Assembly (NCBI GenBank): GCA_944393295.1
Contig: CALXZR010000132.1
Span: 1 to 33,029 of the forward strand
Length of the DNA stretch: 33,029 bases
Source: an uncultured Clostridia bacterium
Lineage (GTDB): Bacteria; Bacillota_A; Clostridia; TANB77; CAG-508
Direction of reading: 5' to 3'
The first letter of the stretch is position 1. Every line of letters starts with the position of its first letter. The notes under the pieces were generated by a model that did no database searches, was not told the origin of the DNA, and saw only the letters and a list, made by a program, of their open reading frames with translations. Made by a program: the position numbers and the translations under genes. This document shows positions 2,486 through 28,630 of this stretch, piece after piece.

Positions 2486-3496
2486 TTAAGCATGTACAAA
2501 CTCAAACTCTACACCAGCAAGTGCTGGCATTCTTCTATTTCCCATAGCTGTATTTCCAACTGCTAACTCTATATTTAAAGCGTTTATTGGAGCTATTTGA
2601 TGGTAGCATACTATATTTTCATTTGCCTTTGTAGTATATTGTTTTATTTCTGTAGTTGCTTTTTCTAATACTAAGCTTAAATCTGAAAACAATTCATTAT
2701 TTTTACAATTTAAATAAGAAAATAAAATATTTGAATTATCTAATTGTTTTGAAGCATTTAAATCTACTTCAACAATAAAAGTTGGTGCTTCTGTAAGGTT
2801 ACCTTCCATATTTATAATTTCATAGTAACCTGGCATACTTAAATTAATGTTTATTCCTTCTGATTGTAACTCTCGAACAGCAGAGCTAATTGCTTTTAAA
2901 CTATTTTGATTTCTACAATCTATTTCTGAAATAAGTCTTATATTTTCTGTTTTGTTAATTTCGTATGCAGCTCTTATAGCAGATTTAAATAATTCTCTTC
3001 CAATTCCTTTTACTCTATTTCCAAAAATATCAACTACATTTTGCTTTGTTAAAACGCCTGTAATAGTTAGAACAGTTTCATCCTTAGTAGGAAAATATGG
3101 ATTCTTTAAAATAGATTTATTTCTTTCTATTTTTACTGTAGTTGCTCCAACAATTTCTTCTTCTAAGCCATTTGACTGAGTAGCAAGTATTACAGGATAT
3201 TTGTATACATTTTGCATTATTTGTTTTATGTTTGGTATATGCATAAAATCTTTATTTCCTGTAAAGTTTCTATCGTAGAAATATGCTAATTCAAAAATTT
3301 TATCAAATAATTTTGTTTTTTCTTTTATGCTTTGAAATAAATAAAAATTGATATCGAAAGCATTTTTATTTTTGTTTCTAAACTTTTTTGTTGTTTCCTC
3401 CATTTCTTTATTATAATATTTGAACGCATTAACTTTTAAGCGATTTATGTTTGCATAAACCTGCGTTCGGGGTTTCACTTTTTTCTTCTTTCTCAT
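2486..3496 (-). CDS. GNAT-like acyltransferase, partner of the GshF-like ligase
   Basis: A 336-residue protein with a very basic N-terminus (RKKKKVKPR). Residues 114-205 look like a GNAT core: strands around EIVGATTVKIER and ETVLTITGVLT, the acyl-CoA loop pattern RVKGIGREL (161-169) followed by helix FKSAIRAAYEI, then EIDCRNQNSLKAI (191-203), the usual D-x-N-x-x-S motif B. The N-terminal 100 and C-terminal 100 residues match nothing I recognise. It starts at an ATG with AGGAG 8 bases upstream and has a promoter at 3608-3636 with a long leader. Its neighbour is an ATP-grasp ligase, which suggests, but does not show, that the two build or cap a small peptide. It could instead be a regulatory or protein acetyltransferase. 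Confidence 0.5.
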   Translation of the reverse strand: MRKKKKVKPRTQVYANINRLKVNAFKYYNKEMEETTKKFRNKNKNAFDINFYLFQSIKEKTKLFDKIFELAYFYDRNFTGNKDFMHIPNIKQIMQNVYKYPVILATQSNGLEEEIVGATTVKIERNKSILKNPYFPTKDETVLTITGVLTKQNVVDIFGNRVKGIGRELFKSAIRAAYEINKTENIRLISEIDCRNQNSLKAISSAVRELQSEGININLSMPGYYEIINMEGNLTEAPTFIVEVDLNASKQLDNSNILFSYLNCKNNELFSDLSLVLEKATTEIKQYTTKANENIVCYHQIAPINALNIELAVGNTAMGNRRMPALAGVEFEFVHA

Positions 3497-3766: not shown

Positions 3767-3801
3767 AAAAGCACCAGAAATGCTTCTATTCTGGTGTTTT
3801 T
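3767..3801 (-). terminator. terminator of the XRE/SecB-like operon
   Basis: CACCAGAA (3772-3779) pairs with TTCTGGTG (3789-3796). Flanking A and T runs extend the stem to about 13 bp, and on the minus strand the hairpin runs into TTTTAAAATT. It lies 50 bases past the stop of the SecB-like gene. The A/T flanks would also allow some plus-strand activity. Confidence 0.7.
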
Positions 3802-3850: not shown

Positions 3851-4252
3851 TTATTGTTCAACGAAATTTACCATTGGAAGAATAACATTAGGTACAGAAC
3901 TTAATGCTGTATTCGCAGTAATAAAGGCTCTCATCTCTTGATATAATACCGCTGCTCCATTAATCGATAACCTTTTTTTCATTTCATCTTCTGTTATTCC
4001 TTTATTGAAAATAAAAGTTCCCCTCATACACAAATTAATTTTTCCTAATTCAACTTTATTTTCATCACATATACTTATATTGCTTTGTAATTCTATTCCA
4101 ACAACAATATTATTTTCTTTTTCTTCTGGTTTCATTTGTCTATAATCTAACTTACCTTCAAACTTCAAATTTTCATTCGGTAAAATCTTTCTATTAACAA
4201 TAAAATTATATTCTTTTACATATTTATCAATCATCTGCATATTTATCTTCAT
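3851..4252 (-). CDS. SecB-like chaperone
   Basis: A 133-residue protein. The second half reads like SecB: a beta-rich centre (NNIVVGIELQSNISI, GKINLCMRGTFIF), then GAAVLYQEMRAFITANTALS (99-118) and NVILPMVNF (122-130), matching SecB's 'lyPylRe.is.l...g.fPp..L.pvnF' ending. Firmicutes usually lack the classical SecB/SecA export route. SecB-like proteins in such genomes are known in toxin-antitoxin-chaperone (TAC) modules, where they protect an unstable antitoxin. Here the gene starts 7 bases after an XRE gene, with AGGATAGG as ribosome site, so the two are surely co-transcribed. Its client is inferred to be that XRE protein. A general holdase role is the alternative. Confidence 0.68.
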   Translation of the reverse strand: MKINMQMIDKYVKEYNFIVNRKILPNENLKFEGKLDYRQMKPEEKENNIVVGIELQSNISICDENKVELGKINLCMRGTFIFNKGITEDEMKKRLSINGAAVLYQEMRAFITANTALSSVPNVILPMVNFVEQ

Positions 4253-4259
4253 TTTTTAC

Positions 4260-4700
4260 CTATCCTATCTTATAATTTTGTTTTGTATCTTCTTCTATTA
4301 CTTCATCATATTTTATTAATTTCAAATAATCTTTATTTTCCATTTGATATTTATAAACTATATTTAATTTTTTATTTTTATAGTTTTCTTTTTCTATTAA
4401 ATTAGTTCTTATTTTTTGTAAAATTTCTAAAAATATATTAGAGTTTTTTTCTAAGGAGTAAGAAATTTTTAAAAGCATCTTAAATGTTGCATTATAATTT
4501 CCGCTCTCAAGCTTTGATATCATTGTTTGATTCATATTTAATTTTTCAGCTAATTCTTTTTGTGTTAAATTGTTCTTTTTCCTATAATTAATTAATTCTT
4601 TGGCTATCTCTACTAATACATCTGTATAGTCTAATAATTCATTTATTTCCGTTGACTCTTTAATATCTACACTATATGAATCAAATAAATTACTTTTCAT
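4260..4700 (-). CDS. XRE-family HTH regulator, antitoxin-like
   Basis: A 146-residue protein when started at the ATG at 4700, which has AAAGGGG 9 bases upstream; a longer TTG start at 4736 has no ribosome site. The middle holds a clear HTH_3 domain (AKELINYRKKNNLTQKELAE, then MNQTMISKLESGNYNATFKM, about residues 32-80), similar to HigA-type antitoxins. A lysine- and tyrosine-rich tail of about 50 residues follows (ending DTKQNYKIG). In TAC modules such a tail is the chaperone-addiction segment; here that is inference. The promoter carries a palindrome at the expected start of transcription, suggesting self-repression. No toxin gene sits beside it: upstream is a HAD phosphatase with its own ribosome site, downstream the SecB-like gene. 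Confidence 0.8.
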   Translation of the reverse strand: MKSNLFDSYSVDIKESTEINELLDYTDVLVEIAKELINYRKKNNLTQKELAEKLNMNQTMISKLESGNYNATFKMLLKISYSLEKNSNIFLEILQKIRTNLIEKENYKNKKLNIVYKYQMENKDYLKLIKYDEVIEEDTKQNYKIG

Positions 4701-4737
4701 ATTATTTTTCCCCTTTATTAGTATATTAAATCTCAAT

Positions 4738-4843: not shown

Positions 4844-5647
4844 TTATTTAATGTTTATTTCAATAATCTTCTCTAGAAATACAGCAATTCCGTCTTTGTC
4901 ATTAGATAGAGTTATCTCTTTTGCTTTCTTTTTAACCTCTTCTAGTGCATTTCCCATTGCGACTCCTATTCCAACCTTACTAATTACTGGTAAATCATTT
5001 GTACTATCTCCAAAAAATACAGTTTCACTTATATCTATATTTAATTTTGAACATAATGTTTCTAAAGCTTTAAATTTATCAGTTACATTAGAATTTATTG
5101 ATATCCACTTATTTGCTCTATTATTATCTGTATCTAACATTTCAAATACATTAAGATTACTGAAATTTTCTCTTACAAATTCTTTTCCTTCTTGTATTTC
5201 TTTATCACTTTTAAGAAAAACATTCATTCTTGATATTGTTTCTTTTATTTCTTCAATGCTATTTATTGAAACTCTATAATCTATATCTTTTTCTGGTGTT
5301 CCTTTGTATATATAGTATTTATCTAGTGTACAATAGTCTATTTCTTGTGCAATATCTTTAAATTTATTTGTAATTTTATTTGCAGTTTCTCTATCAATAC
5401 TGCTTCTGGTAATTCCATTTTTATTTTTCACATCATAAATGTAAGCACCATTATTTATAATTAGGTAATTAAACATATTAATATCGCATACACTATTTAT
5501 ACTAGATAAGTTTCTCGCAGTTACTCCTACAATAATATAGCCATTATTTTTACATTTAAATAATACATTTTTTGTTCTCTTAGTAATTTGTTTGTCGCTT
5601 GTTAAAAGAGTGCCATCAAAATCCATAGATATTAGTTTATATTTCAT
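4844..5647 (-). CDS. Cof-type HAD-IIB hydrolase (sugar/nucleotide phosphatase)
   Basis: A 267-residue protein, the usual length of the Cof/YidA group. Motif I is MDFDGTLL (D9 nucleophile, D11), motif II is GVTARN (T43), the lysine motif III lies near KFKALETL (about 190-197), and motif IV is FFGDSTNDLPVI (D214, N217, D218). The C2 cap lies between motifs II and III and sets the substrate, usually a sugar phosphate or flavin/nucleotide phosphate; it cannot be read here. The start is supported by TTGGAG 8 bases upstream of the ATG. It sits between the FRG gene and the XRE operon with no evident functional link. Confidence 0.9.
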   Translation of the reverse strand: MKYKLISMDFDGTLLTSDKQITKRTKNVLFKCKNNGYIIVGVTARNLSSINSVCDINMFNYLIINNGAYIYDVKNKNGITRSSIDRETANKITNKFKDIAQEIDYCTLDKYYIYKGTPEKDIDYRVSINSIEEIKETISRMNVFLKSDKEIQEGKEFVRENFSNLNVFEMLDTDNNRANKWISINSNVTDKFKALETLCSKLNIDISETVFFGDSTNDLPVISKVGIGVAMGNALEEVKKKAKEITLSNDKDGIAVFLEKIIEINIK

Positions 5648-5710: not shown

Positions 5711-6676
5711 TTATTTAGCTTTATATATTAATCTTGAAACTATATTATAATTATTTTTTTGAAGTTCTTTATAATAAATTTCTTTCTCTCTATTTCCAAT
5801 TTTTATAACAGGATATGCAACAATTCTTATTTTACCTTTCAATTTATTTTTTATATCCTCTATATTTAAATTATTTTCTATACAAAACTCTTCTACTACA
5901 TTTTTAGATATTTTCTGTGATAGTTTTATTTTAGTTGCTATATTTGAAACTAATTCATTTGGAAATAATATACATTGTTTTTCATAGCAAAATTGTTTTC
6001 TTATCAATTCATTATATTTTTTATTGTGTTTAAATTTAACACTTGAAAACATATAATCTATATTTTCATTTTCTTTTATTTCAAAACCAAGTGCATTTTG
6101 AATAGCTGGTCTTCTAAAAGGTTGTATTCCTTCAAAATGAAATCTACTATTTTTATTTAAAGTTCCATTTTCAAACATATAAGCTGTTGGAAACACTTTT
6201 AAAACTCCAATCCCTTCTTCTTGTACAGAATAATTTTCATCACAATTATTTGTTGCAAAAAAGGCTGCAACTAAAATATTAGAAGTTATATCTATTAAAT
6301 TTGTATTTAATCCATAATGTTGAGCTAATGCTATAAAATCTACATCTGCATCACTATTTAAATCGTCGATAATTCTAGGAAAATTTTTTAAAGTACTTTC
6401 AAATTGTTTTATTTTTAATTTAGATATTAATATATCTGTGCTATCATTTGTTCTATACATACTTGGAAGAATTGACGGATATATTTTTTTCTCTCCTCTA
6501 AAAAAATTTGGCTGCATAATACTACTATCTCTTAAAGCAAATATTTTTCCATCTATTTCAATAGCATTGAATCTATTTACTCTAACTGCAATTTTTCCAT
6601 TTAATATGTTTTCTATTGGAAAACTTGGATCTGCATATTTAATTGCTTCTAATATATTATCAAATATTTCTTGCAT
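5711..6676 (-). CDS. FRG-domain protein
   Basis: A 321-residue cytoplasmic protein with the FRG signature: FFRGEKKIYPSILPSMYR (58-75), ALAQHYGLNTNLIDIT (116-131) and VAAFFATNN (136-144). FRG domains are named after the F-R-G motif; they are common in accessory and defence islands and are often fused to toxic or nuclease domains. Here the C-terminal half (about 170-321) has no domain I recognise. GAGGTAACT precedes the ATG at 6676. A possible extended -10 (TGC-TATAAA, box at 6714-6719) lies upstream but lacks a good -35. No partner gene is evident: DUF2442 upstream is separated by a terminator, and the HAD gene 63 bases downstream is a housekeeping type. Confidence 0.8.
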   Translation of the reverse strand: MQEIFDNILEAIKYADPSFPIENILNGKIAVRVNRFNAIEIDGKIFALRDSSIMQPNFFRGEKKIYPSILPSMYRTNDSTDILISKLKIKQFESTLKNFPRIIDDLNSDADVDFIALAQHYGLNTNLIDITSNILVAAFFATNNCDENYSVQEEGIGVLKVFPTAYMFENGTLNKNSRFHFEGIQPFRRPAIQNALGFEIKENENIDYMFSSVKFKHNKKYNELIRKQFCYEKQCILFPNELVSNIATKIKLSQKISKNVVEEFCIENNLNIEDIKNKLKGKIRIVAYPVIKIGNREKEIYYKELQKNNYNIVSRLIYKAK

Positions 6677-6807: not shown

Positions 6808-6849
6808 AAAAAATAAAACTTCTCCACTTTTATATGAAGAAGTTTATAT
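6808..6849 (-). repeat. 42-bp direct repeat, copy 1 (terminator of the HipA/HIRAN cassette)
   Basis: These 42 bases are identical to 8831-8872. On the minus-strand RNA they form a 10-bp stem (AAACTTCTTC with GGAGAAGTTT, one U-G wobble, 10-base loop) followed by UUUUAUUUUUU, so the repeat is an intrinsic terminator. This copy starts four bases after the DUF2442 stop codon. Confidence 0.9.
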
Positions 6850-6852
6850 CTA

Positions 6853-7092
6853 TTAAAATTCATTTTTACTTAAATTGTATAATTCATCTGGGCAAATATC
6901 AGCTCCATTTTCCCATCTAATTAATAAACCACTTATTTTTACTTTTTTAAATTCATTAATATCTTTTAGTTTCTCAAAAGCTTTTTTGTTTAGATATGGT
7001 TTTACATCAAAAACTTTCCTTTCACCATTATCGAATTCTACTAATAACATATAATCTTCTTTTGGTAATACATTTGTAGCTTTTGGTCTCAT
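6853..7092 (-). CDS. DUF2442 protein
   Basis: A 79-residue protein. The order MLLVEFDNGERKVFDVKPYL (15-34), then FEKLKDINEFKKVKI and LLIRWENGADICPDELY (56-72), is that of DUF2442, a small family often encoded beside DUF4160 genes in toxin-antitoxin-like pairs. No DUF4160 gene is seen here. The start has TTGGAGTG 6-7 bases upstream of the ATG. It is the last gene of the cassette, 54 bases after the HIRAN gene and directly before the terminator repeat. Its role is unknown; a regulatory or antitoxin role is only a guess from family context. Confidence 0.8.
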   Translation of the reverse strand: MRPKATNVLPKEDYMLLVEFDNGERKVFDVKPYLNKKAFEKLKDINEFKKVKISGLLIRWENGADICPDELYNLSKNEF

Positions 7093-7146
7093 AAAATCAC
7101 TCCAAGCTTCTATTAATTCTTAACTATTTACTAAATTCTATTTCTA

Positions 7147-7830
7147 TTAATTAACGCAATTTAATATTAATCTTACTCTTATACATTCATCACAATTATC
7201 ATAATTATTATTTTTATTAATAATTTTGCATGAATATTTTCTTTTCTGTTTTAAAAACAAGCTAATCTCTTTAGAATAATATTTTGGTACAAATCCAACA
7301 AATTCATCTTTAATCAACATTTTTATAGCATACCTATCAAATTCATTTTTCTCATCTGGATATAAAATAACTTCATCTCCAATATTTATATCATTATGGT
7401 ATTCTCTTATACAATGATATCTTGTTCCCGCAATAAAAAAATCTCTTACTAAATTTGGTTCTTTTAAATTAACAATTGGATCAATAAATTCTAGTGTATC
7501 TAATGGTGTTTTTGCACCGCTTCTTTTCAACAATTCAAATTCATTATACTCTGCCATATTGTATCTTTTTAAAATCTCATCTATATCAACTCTATTCTTA
7601 CTAGGTATTCTGCTTGAAAATACGGGAAACATATTTTCATTTGTATATTTTTTATCTATTTTTGGAAAAGCAAGTAATAATTTAAAGCCTTCTTTTTGAG
7701 CTTGTTTTGCTGCGTTTGTATATTTAAACTCAAACTTTCCATTTCTTTTTAATAAGCCTACTACTGTCTTACTTCTAGTTTTTGGATTTTGCCAAACTAA
7801 ATATATATAATCTTTGTTAAAAAATCTCAT
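7147..7830 (-). CDS. HipA-N-like/HIRAN fusion protein
   Basis: A 227-residue protein from the ATG at 7830, which follows GTGGGTGA and lies 4 bases past the kinase frame's stop; an ATG at 7854 would give 8 more residues. The first 115 residues resemble the N-subdomain of HipA: LVWQNP, VVGLLKRNGKFEFKY, FKLLLAFP, MFPVFSSRIP, EFELLKRSGAKTPLDTLEF. Residues 130-197 are a HIRAN domain: RDFFIAGTRYHC, GDEVILYPDEKNEFDRYAIK, EFVGFVPKYYSKEISLFL. HIRAN domains bind DNA ends or stalled forks in helicases such as HLTF. The kinase encoded immediately upstream lacks a HipA N-subdomain, so the pair looks like a HipA divided into two proteins. In known HipBST systems the separate N-subdomain protein (HipS) acts as antitoxin; that role is inferred here. 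Confidence 0.75.
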   Translation of the reverse strand: MRFFNKDYIYLVWQNPKTRSKTVVGLLKRNGKFEFKYTNAAKQAQKEGFKLLLAFPKIDKKYTNENMFPVFSSRIPSKNRVDIDEILKRYNMAEYNEFELLKRSGAKTPLDTLEFIDPIVNLKEPNLVRDFFIAGTRYHCIREYHNDINIGDEVILYPDEKNEFDRYAIKMLIKDEFVGFVPKYYSKEISLFLKQKRKYSCKIINKNNNYDNCDECIRVRLILNCVN

Positions 7831-7834
7831 CTTA

Positions 7835-8738
7835 TCACCCACTTTTATAAACATTTCTTAAATCTTCAATTTTAATATTTAAGAATTTTTTTATCAATCT
7901 TTTTCTATTATATGAAATACCTTCAATTTGATTTACTAACTCATTAATTTTATTTTCGTCTAACACTTTTAAAACAAATTCTACAAACTCTTTTGTTTCT
8001 TGATAATAATTGCTATACAAATATTTAATAACATCTATATGCATAGGTCTTTTTTTATCTTTTTCATTAATTTTAATCATACTTTTTGACTTTGTTCTAA
8101 CTAAGCTTTCTAAAGGCAAAATATCTTTCTTAAAATATCTTTCTATATCTTCTTCATATATATGCACATAAAGCTGAACCATTATCATATAAAGGAGCTA
8201 TTTCTATATCGTTATCTTCCTTTCTTATAATAGCCCAATTATTTGAATGTCTATCTGTATTGCCAATTATATAATCGAAAATTAAAACTTTTAGAAATTC
8301 TTTTTCCAATCTTTTGTTGTTTAAAGAGTTTAGTATCATTTTTATTGAATAGTATATTTTATTTTGTTCATCATATAATGTTTTTTCATTATATTTAGGA
8401 TATTTTTTAGTAATTAAAGATACAGCTTCTTCCATTTGTTTATTTATATTGTAACTTAAACACCCTAGTTCATTTTGATATACTCCAATATCTATATGTG
8501 CATTTTTTATTCCTATTGTATTAGCTATTAATTCTGCTAATTTTTCAGAAAAATTTTCGTAAGAATTAAATTCTTCATAATCACCATTTTCTGTTTTTCT
8601 TCTTGTTTTCTTTACATATTTAAACCAACCTTGTTTATTTGGATTTTTAGGATTTATTAGCCATACTTTTTTTCCTTTTCCAGAACCAACTATTCTATCT
8701 TCACGTTCCCATTTATCAAAATTTTCTATATTTATCAC
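7835..8738 (-). pseudogene. HipA-like kinase gene, split by a frameshift
   Basis: Two overlapping frames (8738 to 8154, 194 residues; 8188 to 7835, 117 residues) form one HipA/CtkA-like kinase of about 300 residues. The first frame carries the probable ATP lysine (GWFKYVKK), helix SEKLAELIA, the catalytic loop FDYIIGNTDRHSNNW (154-168) and the metal motif PLYDNGSAL (182-190), then stops after CAYI. The second frame continues as YEEDIERYFKKDILPLESLV without loss of sense. The break lies on (AT)4 at 8156-8163; one more AT unit would restore a single frame. The first frame opens with GTG inside the ribosome-site-like AGAGGTG, and an AUA three codons later is better spaced. It may be a broken gene, a phase-variable one, or a sequence error. 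HipA kinases inactivate tRNA synthetases or other translation targets. Confidence 0.72.
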
Positions 8739-8788
8739 CTCTTTTATGTCTTTAGTTCCTTATAAATCCAAATAATTTATCTATAAAT

Positions 8789-8817
8789 ATAATAGCATAT
8801 TGAAAATTTATTTTCAA
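8789..8817 (-). promoter_or_regulatory. promoter of the HipA/HIRAN cassette
   Basis: TTGAAA (8812-8817) and TATTAT (8789-8794) are separated by 17 bases with a TG dinucleotide before the -10. It lies inside the two 42-bp repeats, so the cassette carries its own promoter. Confidence 0.75.
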
Positions 8818-8830
8818 CTTAATATTTACT

Positions 8831-8872
8831 AAAAAATAAAACTTCTCCACTTTTATATGAAGAAGTTTATAT
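8831..8872 (-). repeat. 42-bp direct repeat, copy 2 (terminator of the polysaccharide operon)
   Basis: Identical to 6808-6849. It lies 27 bases past the stop codon of the LCP gene and would end the long polysaccharide transcript. The bases on either side of the two copies are unrelated, so identity stops sharply at the repeat ends. Confidence 0.9.
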
Positions 8873-8899
8873 GTTCATTGATTTTAATTTTATTAAATA

Positions 8900-9916
8900 C
8901 TAATTATTTCCATACAAATACTTTATAAAATCTTGTTTACATTTTTCGTAGCTACTTGGAACGAAATAGTATATTCCACCTATGTATTGCCCTGATGCAT
9001 CTTCTAATGAAGGCACTTGTGCTGAAGTTATATTTCCTAAATACTCATTTTTGTACTTTAATACATCTGGAATATAACTTGAATATTTAACAACATCTAT
9101 ATTAGTTTTTACGTAAGGTAAAAATTCATCTATTATTTTATTAATTTCTGTTACACTTTTTTGTGAAATAACTTGTAATAGTGTTGTAATTACAGTTCTT
9201 TGTCTTTCTGCTCTTGCAAAATCATTGTTACCTACATATCTATTTCCACAGTGAGTTAATACTTGAATACCATTTAAATGAACTTTTCCAGATGAAGTTA
9301 GTTTACTATTATCTTTATTAAATTTTTGGGCTTGTGCATCTACTCCTCTATTTATATAGTCTTTTTCGGCTTCACTTATCTCTAAATCTATACCCCCTAC
9401 TAAATCAACAACATTTACCACAGCCTCCCAGCTTACTGTTACATATTCTGAAATATTCAATCCAAAATTTTCATTAATTGTTTTTATTGATAGTTGTTCT
9501 TGACCATAAGCAAAAGCATGGTTTATTTTTGTTTTTCCATATCCTGGAACATTTACATATGTATCTCTTGGAATTGAAACTAAACTGATACTTTTTGTTG
9601 TTGGATTGATTGTAGCTATTATAATGCAATCACTTCTACCATTATCATAAGTATCTTCTATATTTCTAGAATCAGAACCAAAGATTGCAATTGTTTTAAT
9701 CTCATCAAATTCTTCTTGCGTAATATCTACACCCTCTATAGAATTTATATCATTAATTAGATTTTGATTTCCACTTAAATCTGAAACATTTAAATCTTCA
9801 TAATTAATTTTATTTAACTTATCTTTTACAAATACAAAAGCTATTATTCCTATTATAATTAATAGTATTAAAATTATAGCTAATACAATTAAAAAGATTT
9901 TTAAACTTTTTTTCAT
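8900..9916 (-). CDS. LytR-CpsA-Psr (LCP) family cell-wall polymer ligase
   Basis: A 338-residue protein with a basic start, one membrane helix (about 7-30) and an extracellular LCP domain. Seen motifs: IAIFGSDSR (77-84), SIPRDTYVNVPGYGKTKINH (114-133), LVGGIDLEI (172-180) and DFARAERQR (232-240), which supply the aspartate and arginines that hold the polyprenyl pyrophosphate head. The usual ALAYARxR stretch is altered to VLTHCGNR. LCP enzymes move polysaccharide or teichoic acid from the lipid carrier to peptidoglycan. As last gene of the polysaccharide operon it probably attaches this locus's product. AGGAG precedes the ATG, and the acyltransferase gene ends 29 bases upstream. Confidence 0.93.
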   Translation of the reverse strand: MKKSLKIFLIVLAIILILLIIIGIIAFVFVKDKLNKINYEDLNVSDLSGNQNLINDINSIEGVDITQEEFDEIKTIAIFGSDSRNIEDTYDNGRSDCIIIATINPTTKSISLVSIPRDTYVNVPGYGKTKINHAFAYGQEQLSIKTINENFGLNISEYVTVSWEAVVNVVDLVGGIDLEISEAEKDYINRGVDAQAQKFNKDNSKLTSSGKVHLNGIQVLTHCGNRYVGNNDFARAERQRTVITTLLQVISQKSVTEINKIIDEFLPYVKTNIDVVKYSSYIPDVLKYKNEYLGNITSAQVPSLEDASGQYIGGIYYFVPSSYEKCKQDFIKYLYGNN

Positions 9917-26716: not shown

Positions 26717-27388
26717 TTAAATATATTCTCTTAAATATTCAAAAATTTTATAAACTTCTGTTGACGGATTTCTTTTACTTGGTGGGAGAAATTCATCATA
26801 GTTTTCACTTATTTCTTTTGAATTTTTTATTCCTTGCTCTAGATATGGAAGTAGCTTTTGATAATTATCTACATTGTTTTTATTATAAACTCCTAATTGC
26901 TTACTTTCAAAAAATTCTCTTACTTTTTTCAAACAAGTATCTTTGTTTAATTCGGATTCATACTTTACAAAATTTAATAAAATCCAGTATTCAAAGTTTG
27001 GCAAGTTCCAAATTGCATGATATCTTATATTGAAATTTCTTCTATTTAATTTATCACATTCATATTTCACTCTATCAAAGCTGTCATCAGAATAATCGTC
27101 TTTATCGTAAACAATCCATACATGTTTCGGTGTTATTTCAGAATTATTTACTTCATTTATAGCATCTTGCAATAAATCTGTTGTTCCTTTTCCTTTGCCT
27201 TTTGGAATAACTTTTATTTTATCTGGAAATTTCTTATTTATTTCTTTTGCAAATTCATCAAAATAGTTTGGTTCTGTTTCTGTTCCTTCACTTATTATTA
27301 AATGATGTTCTGCTGTTACTTGCTTTTTTGCATCCCTTCTTGGTTCTGCCCATTGTTTATCTATATCTGATTTTTTTATTCTTTTCAA
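26717..27388 (-). CDS. rloB: RloB-like TOPRIM-type defence protein
   Basis: 223 residues. The sequence shows IISEGTETEPNYFDEF (31-46, conserved E34), HVWIVYDKDDY (89-99, with D95/D97/D98) and NLPNFEYWILLNF (128-140), the RloB (PF13707) pattern, related to TOPRIM nuclease folds. It is a partner of RloA-type ATPases; the AbiLi/AbiLii phage-abortion pair has the same composition. The start is TTG: GGGAGGAA overlaps the RloA stop codon, the TTG follows 11 bases later, and no other start codon occurs before the conserved region. The effector action is thought to be nucleic-acid cleavage, not demonstrated here. Confidence 0.88.
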   Translation of the reverse strand: MKRIKKSDIDKQWAEPRRDAKKQVTAEHHLIISEGTETEPNYFDEFAKEINKKFPDKIKVIPKGKGKGTTDLLQDAINEVNNSEITPKHVWIVYDKDDYSDDSFDRVKYECDKLNRRNFNIRYHAIWNLPNFEYWILLNFVKYESELNKDTCLKKVREFFESKQLGVYNKNNVDNYQKLLPYLEQGIKNSKEISENYDEFLPPSKRNPSTEVYKIFEYLREYI

Positions 27389-27394
27389 AAAGTT

Positions 27395-28630
27395 TTATTC
27401 CTCCCAATTTAGAATTCTCTTTAAATATGGATCTGCTCCATATCTTCCTTCAATATATTGTTTATTGTAAGCACTTTGGATTTTTATTCTTTCACCTTTT
27501 TCATCTCTTATGTCATATAAACAATAAATTTCGCTGGCATTTTCTTCGTTCTTACAAGCAAACCATATTTCATCTCTTCTAAATACATCTCTATTCATTG
27601 TTGTTAAATCATGTGAAGAAAATATTAGCTGTGCATTTTTGTTGTTTATATTTTTATTTTTGAATAACTTTATAGTATATTCAATTAATTTAGGATGCAA
27701 TTTAGAACTTAGTTCATCTATAATTGCTACTCCTCCTCTAGCTAATATATCTATTATAAAAGGTAATAAATTAAATAATTTCTTAGTTCCTTCTGATTCC
27801 TGTTTTAAGTTTAGTTCATAATTATTATGTTTTAAAATAAGTTTAATCTTATTAGCACTTTCTTCATTTTCTGAAGGTACTTTCTCTATTCTATAATCTG
27901 AAACATCTATATCCATATTCTCTAATAATTTTAATATTCTGTTTTTATACTTACCATCTTCTAATATTCTAACATTCATTTTATTTTCAATATTACTGTT
28001 AGCATAATTTAAAGCTAATACATTCTCAAACCAATTCATAGTTGATTCTACAATTTCTATATTAGTAAAAATACTTAAATTAGACAAATATGGCACTTCT
28101 TCATTTACTTGAATAGATACTTTTTCTTTTTTTAATACATCTCCAAGATCTATTTCATTGTTTTTACGTTCAAAAATTTTTGTTGGTTTTTTTGTTCCAA
28201 AATCTCTAATGTACAAATATTCCTCTATTATTTTATTGTTTAATAAAGATATTCCATATTTAAATTCTGTCTTTTCATTTCCAAAAAGAACTTCAAATTC
28301 TGTTGGATTATTTTTGGATTCTTCATTAAACAAATATGGTGAATACTCAATTAAAAAAGAAAATAATGGATTTGATAATTTTTCTTTATTATTAAGTTTA
28401 AAAAATAATTTAGGTCTAATAATTATTGAAACAAGAAAAACAAGAGCCTCTAACACACCAGATTTTCCACCTCCATTTGGTCCGTATAAAACAGCTACAG
28501 GTAAAATTTTTTCTCCTTTTGTATCACATAATAAACTCTCTTCAAATTCGTTTGTATTTACAGCACGCATATCTAAAATAGTTTCATCTTTATAAGATTT
28601 AAAATTTTTAAATTTAAAATAATATAACAT
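27395..28630 (-). CDS. rloA: RloA-like AAA/ABC-type ATPase
   Basis: 411 residues, the OLD/RloA type. A strand-rich start (LYYFKFKNFKSYKDE) precedes the Walker A GPNGGGKS (50-57). A variable middle follows, then the signature-like QESEGTKKLFNLLP (277-290), Walker B VAIIDELSSKLHP (301-313) and the H-loop IFSSHDLTTM (336-345). It ends ADPYLKRILNWEE, characteristic of RloA proteins. It probably senses infection and licenses RloB; the trigger is unknown. GAGGGAAAA precedes the ATG and a near-consensus promoter lies at 28680-28708. With the terminator behind rloB this makes a self-contained two-gene defence unit. Confidence 0.9.
   Translation of the reverse strand: MLYYFKFKNFKSYKDETILDMRAVNTNEFEESLLCDTKGEKILPVAVLYGPNGGGKSGVLEALVFLVSIIIRPKLFFKLNNKEKLSNPLFSFLIEYSPYLFNEESKNNPTEFEVLFGNEKTEFKYGISLLNNKIIEEYLYIRDFGTKKPTKIFERKNNEIDLGDVLKKEKVSIQVNEEVPYLSNLSIFTNIEIVESTMNWFENVLALNYANSNIENKMNVRILEDGKYKNRILKLLENMDIDVSDYRIEKVPSENEESANKIKLILKHNNYELNLKQESEGTKKLFNLLPFIIDILARGGVAIIDELSSKLHPKLIEYTIKLFKNKNINNKNAQLIFSSHDLTTMNRDVFRRDEIWFACKNEENASEIYCLYDIRDEKGERIKIQSAYNKQYIEGRYGADPYLKRILNWEE

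Follow-up and report, generated by a model that had tools for sequence, protein, structure and literature searches.

A hipIN-type kinase toxin-antitoxin module between identical terminators, in a probably rearranged operon-end setting of a Clostridia bacterium

Among the described toxin-antitoxin systems, two are close to the locus analysed here. The first is hipIN, clade XI of the HipA family in the classification of Gerdes et al. 2021 (PMC8262856), where a size of 279-321 aa is given for the kinases HipG, HipI, HipJ and HipM together. The authors of that paper propose HipN as the putative neutraliser of the kinase and HIRAN as a possible sensor of phage DNA ends; along the lines suggested there, HipN would restrain the HipI kinase, and the sensing of phage DNA ends by HIRAN would lead to kinase activation and from there to abortive infection. 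The second is dhiTA, a DUF4160/DUF2442 pair whose DhiA antitoxin carries the DUF2442 domain, as described in PMC8198452. Here we examine a stretch of 33,029 nucleotides (hereafter the window) from an uncultured Clostridia bacterium, in which genes of both kinds lie between two identical terminators.

Read along the direction of transcription on the minus strand, the locus comprises the LCP gene, terminator copy 2, a promoter-like site, the kinase, a HipS-like protein with HIRAN, DUF2442, terminator copy 1, an FRG-domain gene and a HAD hydrolase. LCP (LytR-CpsA-Psr; 8900..9916, minus strand as are all features below; PF03816, 1.1e-34) is a glycopolymer transferase and the last gene of a polysaccharide operon. 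The N-terminal part of a hipI-type kinase (8154..8738, residues 1-194) matches HipA_C in Pfam (5.3e-11) and the PADLOC profile PDC-M03A (5.1e-64), and includes the stretches GSGKG, NTDRHSNN and YDNG. At its end the reading frame is broken by a frameshift, and the C-terminal part is found in another frame (7835..8188), with a match to positions 180-289 of the 293 of PDC-M03A (5.3e-27) and to no Pfam family. It is followed by a hipN-type gene (7147..7854), whose product combines HipS-like Couple_hipA (PF13657, 9e-8) and HIRAN (PF08797, 1.6e-8) domains and matches PDC-M03B (5.2e-79). By these domain and profile matches, we assign the kinase and HipS-HIRAN genes to a hipIN module (PADLOC PDC-M03). 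The gene content named in the original prediction, kinase, HIRAN and DUF2442 inside the bracket, was accordingly recovered by HipA_C, Couple_hipA plus HIRAN and DUF2442 matches, with the amendment that the kinase frame is broken. Since a near-identical, full-length kinase of 301 aa exists elsewhere (P0241; 99.5% and 97.3% identical to the N- and C-terminal pieces, respectively), the break is peculiar to this strain or to its assembly.

The two terminators are an exact 42-bp direct repeat, with copy 1 at the end of the cassette (6808-6849) and copy 2 at the end of the LCP operon (8831-8872), where the sequence to its left aligns to the 3′ region of LCP in a close relative (L002, see below). On the minus strand, the coding strand of the genes, each 42-mer forms a 12-pair stem with a 6-base loop followed by a T tract, and with folding energies of -14.3 kcal/mol (z -5.3) for copy 1 and -13.1 kcal/mol (z -3.9) for copy 2, both are good intrinsic terminators. 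At up to 3 mismatches, the 30-base hairpin occurs twice in the window and never in 100 dinucleotide shuffles. The pair is also the sole direct repeat in the window to pass our scan (16-base seed, score of at least 22, 200-6000 bp apart, mostly outside ORFs and not of low complexity), and every one of the 13 same-strand 30-mers that recur exactly and contain at least 3 G/C belongs to it. No recombinase gene was found between the repeats among ORFs of at least 70 aa, and the window has no tRNA genes; neither it nor L002 has an Rfam match at the gathering score. In these respects the original prediction stands: the identity over 42 bases ends abruptly at the bounds given above, the repeat doubles as a terminator, the bracket is non-random and a recombinase is absent from its interior. 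Its claim of exactly one promoter between the copies is not established, for promoter-like sites are as frequent in shuffles (mean 43.6) as in the window (40). The site reported here (8789..8817), a consensus match with an extended -10, was chosen on the strength of its alignment to a comparable site of the relative (L002 6328-6356).

A scan of genome_contigs by LCP alignment returned 2 loci from 50 candidate stretches, with LCP proteins 83% and 29% identical to that of the window. The former locus, L002, lies in a 1.7-Mb MAG (G001), the sole close relative found, and has the order hipI (intact, 295 aa), hipN, LCP, a single terminator and the HAD gene; both genomes have hipIN here, to one side of the LCP-terminator unit in the window and to the other in L002, with the PDC-M03A and PDC-M03B genes side by side in each. 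Three blocks align: the promoter-hipI-hipN block (window 8832-7159 with L002 6314-7976, 82% nucleotide identity), LCP with its terminator (9921-8831 with 7995-9081, 84%) and copy 1 (6866-6803 with 9027-9086, 84%). At the protein level, the N- and C-terminal parts of the kinase are 80% and 66% identical and HipN is 82% identical, as against 83% for LCP, 74% for the HAD hydrolase, 84% for the protein encoded at 2486-3496 and 88% for a GshAB-like protein, such that hipIN divergence falls within the range of its neighbours, the C-terminal part of the kinase excepted. The kinase-HIRAN pair probably predates the duplication proposed below, because it sits at the same locus in the relative with neighbour-like divergence. 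The flanking genes are syntenic on the relative's contig (C10) and the intervening glycan genes differ. Checked for an empty site, the relative indeed has a single terminator but is not empty, hipIN lying upstream of LCP.

Around the single L002 terminator, one flank aligns with the sequence to the left of copy 2 and the other with that to the right of copy 1; on this right side, copy 1 has 5 more bases in common with L002 than copy 2 does. In both genomes a terminator precedes the hipIN block, and the start of the block coincides with the T tract of that terminator or lies no more than about a dozen bases from it; the hairpin concerned in L002 differs from that of the window. Neither the spacer between copy 1 and FRG nor that between FRG and HAD gave a signal against the L002 terminator-HAD spacer (765 and 861 of 1000 shuffles, respectively, reach the score). 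The next-closest LCP among 96 genomes is 56% identical, and neither HAD nor GshAB was found near LCP in 14 stretches from 13 of these genomes, some of them cut by contig ends; with neither gene nearby, the LCP loci of such distant relatives are uninformative for this site. In two of the more distant genomes (L012, L018) LCP directly follows a flippase-like gene, a point in favour of the window's arrangement, with LCP closing the operon, as the ancestral one, in which case the L002 order would be derived.

The DUF2442 gene (6853..7092; PF10387, 7.5e-17) is antitoxin-like (DhiA-type) and has a distribution of its own: PF10387 is present in 26 of 96 genomes and absent from G001, and the protein is up to 78% identical to those of DUF2442 loci in other genomes. 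We fetched 20 such loci. Of 12 with a nucleotide match to the window, half have matches that begin 13-37 bp upstream of the gene. ORFs were inspected in seven loci, and in six of these a DUF4160-like frame lies just upstream of DUF2442, the exception being L128, where the upstream ORF matched no Pfam family. The frame is of 88 aa in five, and all three upstream 88-aa ORFs tested with Pfam are DUF4160; in L130 the upstream ORF is listed at 119 aa, and its last 88 codons were used in the comparison. Aligned to the hipN-DUF2442 spacer of the window, the DUF4160 genes of the six loci gave scores reached by 0 (L129), 1 (L132), 1 (L130), 6 (L134), 8 (L127) and 104 (L140) of 500 mononucleotide shuffles, uncorrected for the six comparisons. 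L129, L132, L130 and L127 align over a common internal segment, and L134 and L140 elsewhere. This segment (7101..7132; score 41 in the best local alignment, to the L129 gene) is a probable relic of a DUF4160 (DhiT-type) toxin gene, and the DUF2442 gene looks like an antitoxin left over from a DUF4160-DUF2442 pair of the dhiTA type.

We posit, with a probability of roughly 55%, that the glycan operon underwent a duplication of its LCP-terminator end, either in tandem or via exchange of the glycan locus, and that the redundant LCP was then lost, with hipIN not having brought the terminator along. The ancestral locus would have had promoter-hipI-hipN and the LCP gene with the terminator already in place. 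The LCP-terminator end would then have been duplicated, in tandem or through an exchange of the glycan locus with its junction in the T tract that immediately precedes the hipIN promoter, and the LCP copy behind hipN would have been lost. A dhiTA-type pair may then have come into the vacated slot and lost its toxin gene, giving the present order LCP-terminator-promoter-hipI-hipN-DUF2442-terminator. A duplicated LCP-terminator unit with one LCP lost accounts for the presence of two terminators and for the gene order of either genome. Such an event would be recent, because the copies are exactly identical while a short indel and different flanks set the L002 terminator apart from them. The same identity counts against duplication insofar as it requires either a recent event or gene conversion; so do the single close relative, which leaves the ancestral order without polarisation, the flippase-LCP adjacency in L012 and L018, by which the L002 order would be the derived one, and the extra match in the right flank of copy 1, which comes to 5 bases only. 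Between hipN and DUF2442, three LCP comparisons gave no signal of a remnant (533, 317 and 163 of 1000 shuffles reach the score), and since the slot keeps no trace of LCP, we infer rather than observe the loss of the second copy. The duplication, its order and its mechanism are likewise deduced, whereas the comparison directly shows the two gene orders, the relative's one terminator and lack of DUF2442, and the similar divergence of hipIN and the genes around it.

The original prediction had the module entering next to the operon terminator and copying it as an attachment-like site. In this form, with the whole hipIN-DUF2442 cassette duplicating a terminator that served as attachment-like or homologous-exchange site, we consider insertion unlikely. 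It would account for exact 42-bp copies at both ends and a single one in the relative, and would agree with LCP at the operon end if that is the older state, as well as with a second hairpin-bracketed module one gene away in the relative (see below). However, the relative's hipIN is already at the locus, on the other side of LCP and with neighbour-like divergence, which would need a separate explanation, and DUF2442 is of separate origin. The bracket lacks a recombinase gene, and the 24-mer core of the 42-mer has no exact match in genome_contigs or viral_contigs. The entry proposed in the original prediction is therefore not supported, and the terminator was probably not the site of a new hipIN insertion.

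Insertion also draws on the fact that hipIN is phage cargo elsewhere, which is not in itself evidence for the route it took into the window. In phage phiCDKH02, hipIN is next to an integrase gene. Six loci were found in IMG/VR, in five of which the kinase adjoins hipN: three phage contigs (L004, L007, L008) carry hipIN in the interval from the terminase large subunit gene to the portal gene, which holds at most two further ORFs, another (L005) has a portal gene after hipIN, on the side that was resolved, and the tested neighbours in L006 proved to be a helicase fragment and a methyltransferase. Searches with hipN gave five plasmid records with partial matches and two phages. Among the 96 relatives, 23 have a match, only that of G001 spanning nearly the whole protein, and 8 of 391 genomes of the class have one at E <= 1e-25. 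Our literature search on HipA in phage morons returned no papers. In four further loci (L043, L044, L152, L153), the kinase homology is split over two frames near residue 90, with the N-terminal part only partly matched in L152, and the adjoining HipS-like frame lacks HIRAN and spans about 124 aa, truncated in L044 by the end of the contig.

Two further accounts would do without any duplication. A general-purpose repeated terminator could have been used independently behind two transcripts, as both copies are well formed and rightly placed. This we hold very unlikely: the whole G001 genome contains a single match to the stem pattern derived from the L002 terminator, and among 417 hairpins in 1.10 Mb of it only 2 similar pairs lie within 6 kb, namely the second-bracket pair described below and another on contig C13, flanked by two gene starts that resemble each other. 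Nor does the window's 24-mer core match in G001 at up to 3 mismatches; in this one relative, the terminator is not a dispersed repeat. Alternatively, two strains may have been joined at the 42-mer during assembly, a reading to which the kinase frameshift, seen in the window and not in the near-identical protein elsewhere, would lend itself. We regard such an artefact as highly improbable, given that 90%-identity clusters place hipN on 9 contigs (longest 77 kb) and LCP on 4 (longest 89 kb), figures that reflect cluster membership only.

The relative displays a second bracket, built on a different hairpin (L002 10054-10082 and 11762-11790, 1 base of 29 differing), these two being the only matches to it in G001 at up to 3 mismatches. 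It encloses a 92-aa ORF with no family match and a SocA/Panacea-domain antitoxin-like gene. Its distance from the first site, about 1 kb or one gene, is suggestive but was noted post hoc, and the window has one copy of this hairpin with 2 mismatches (3770-3798), after an HTH gene and a weakly SecB-like gene. Two brackets built on different hairpins, one in each of these related genomes and one on either side of the shared HAD gene, suggest that this locus may be predisposed to events of this kind. It is a distinctly unlikely generalisation that defence and toxin-antitoxin modules are gained here together with a duplicate of the resident terminator, free of recombinases (e.g., by T-tract joining), each being insulated by terminators on both sides. 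Across about 1.17 Mb of contigs from eight other genomes we found one similar hairpin pair (G078, 301 bp apart, with no ORF in the interval). In G001, the direct-repeat scan produced four entries, namely the hairpin pair on C10, two entries on C13 and, close to the end of C11, a repeat pair of 150 bp. For the other genomes, the matches listed also included an exact 31-bp hairpin pair in G072, 593 bp apart (L193 7363 and 7956; G072 C3 67363 and 67956) and just after an ORF that by eye resembles a tyrosine recombinase, and 30-bp repeat arrays in G078 and G068 that are CRISPR-like by spacing. Judged from titles and abstract starts, our literature searches on terminators as integration or cassette sites yielded nothing recognised as describing such a case.

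Outside the bracket, between copy 1 and HAD, lies the FRG-domain gene (5711..6676; PF08867, 1.9e-16; PADLOC PDC-S15, 1.2e-17), whose product has no match in the 1.10 Mb of G001 searched. The HAD hydrolase (4844..5647) is the conserved right neighbour, being the next gene after the single terminator in L002. At 3851-4736, the site where L002 carries its Panacea-type module, the window has the HTH gene and then the weakly SecB-like gene, the latter with a PD-T4-9_C match (6.6e-8). Farther away, an AbiLi/AbiLii-like pair (26717-28630) is flanked on both sides by genes syntenic in the relative; neither of its proteins matched in the 1.10 Mb of G001 searched.

More generally, direct repeats around a defence cassette, an apparent signature of insertion, can come from the rearranged end of a neighbouring operon, and only a syntenic relative reveals this. 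The locus is a small test case for how toxin-antitoxin modules accumulate and decay between operons, as with the DUF2442 gene and its probable trace of a toxin gene. The module family itself is already known, and it is the anatomy of the locus that is unusual. Compared with dhiTA as presented in PMC8198452, the window shares the DUF2442 gene and a short upstream stretch that resembles the DUF4160 genes of other genomes; it differs in having no intact DUF4160 gene between hipN and DUF2442, such that the adjacent DUF4160 and DUF2442 genes of that system are not seen here. Of the PADLOC candidate system PDC-M03 both components, M03A and M03B, are matched, with the difference that the kinase is split over two frames; a role in defence is putative. 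With a HipA-type kinase gene upstream of a HipS-like+HIRAN gene, the window resembles hipIN as described in PMC8262856. The short kinase of that system has full-length counterparts of 295 aa in L002 and 301 aa in P0241; in the window its frame is broken, an extra DUF2442 gene lies downstream and identical terminators bracket the whole. The bracketed unit is a known type of kinase toxin-antitoxin module, a candidate anti-phage system, in an unusual and probably rearranged setting.
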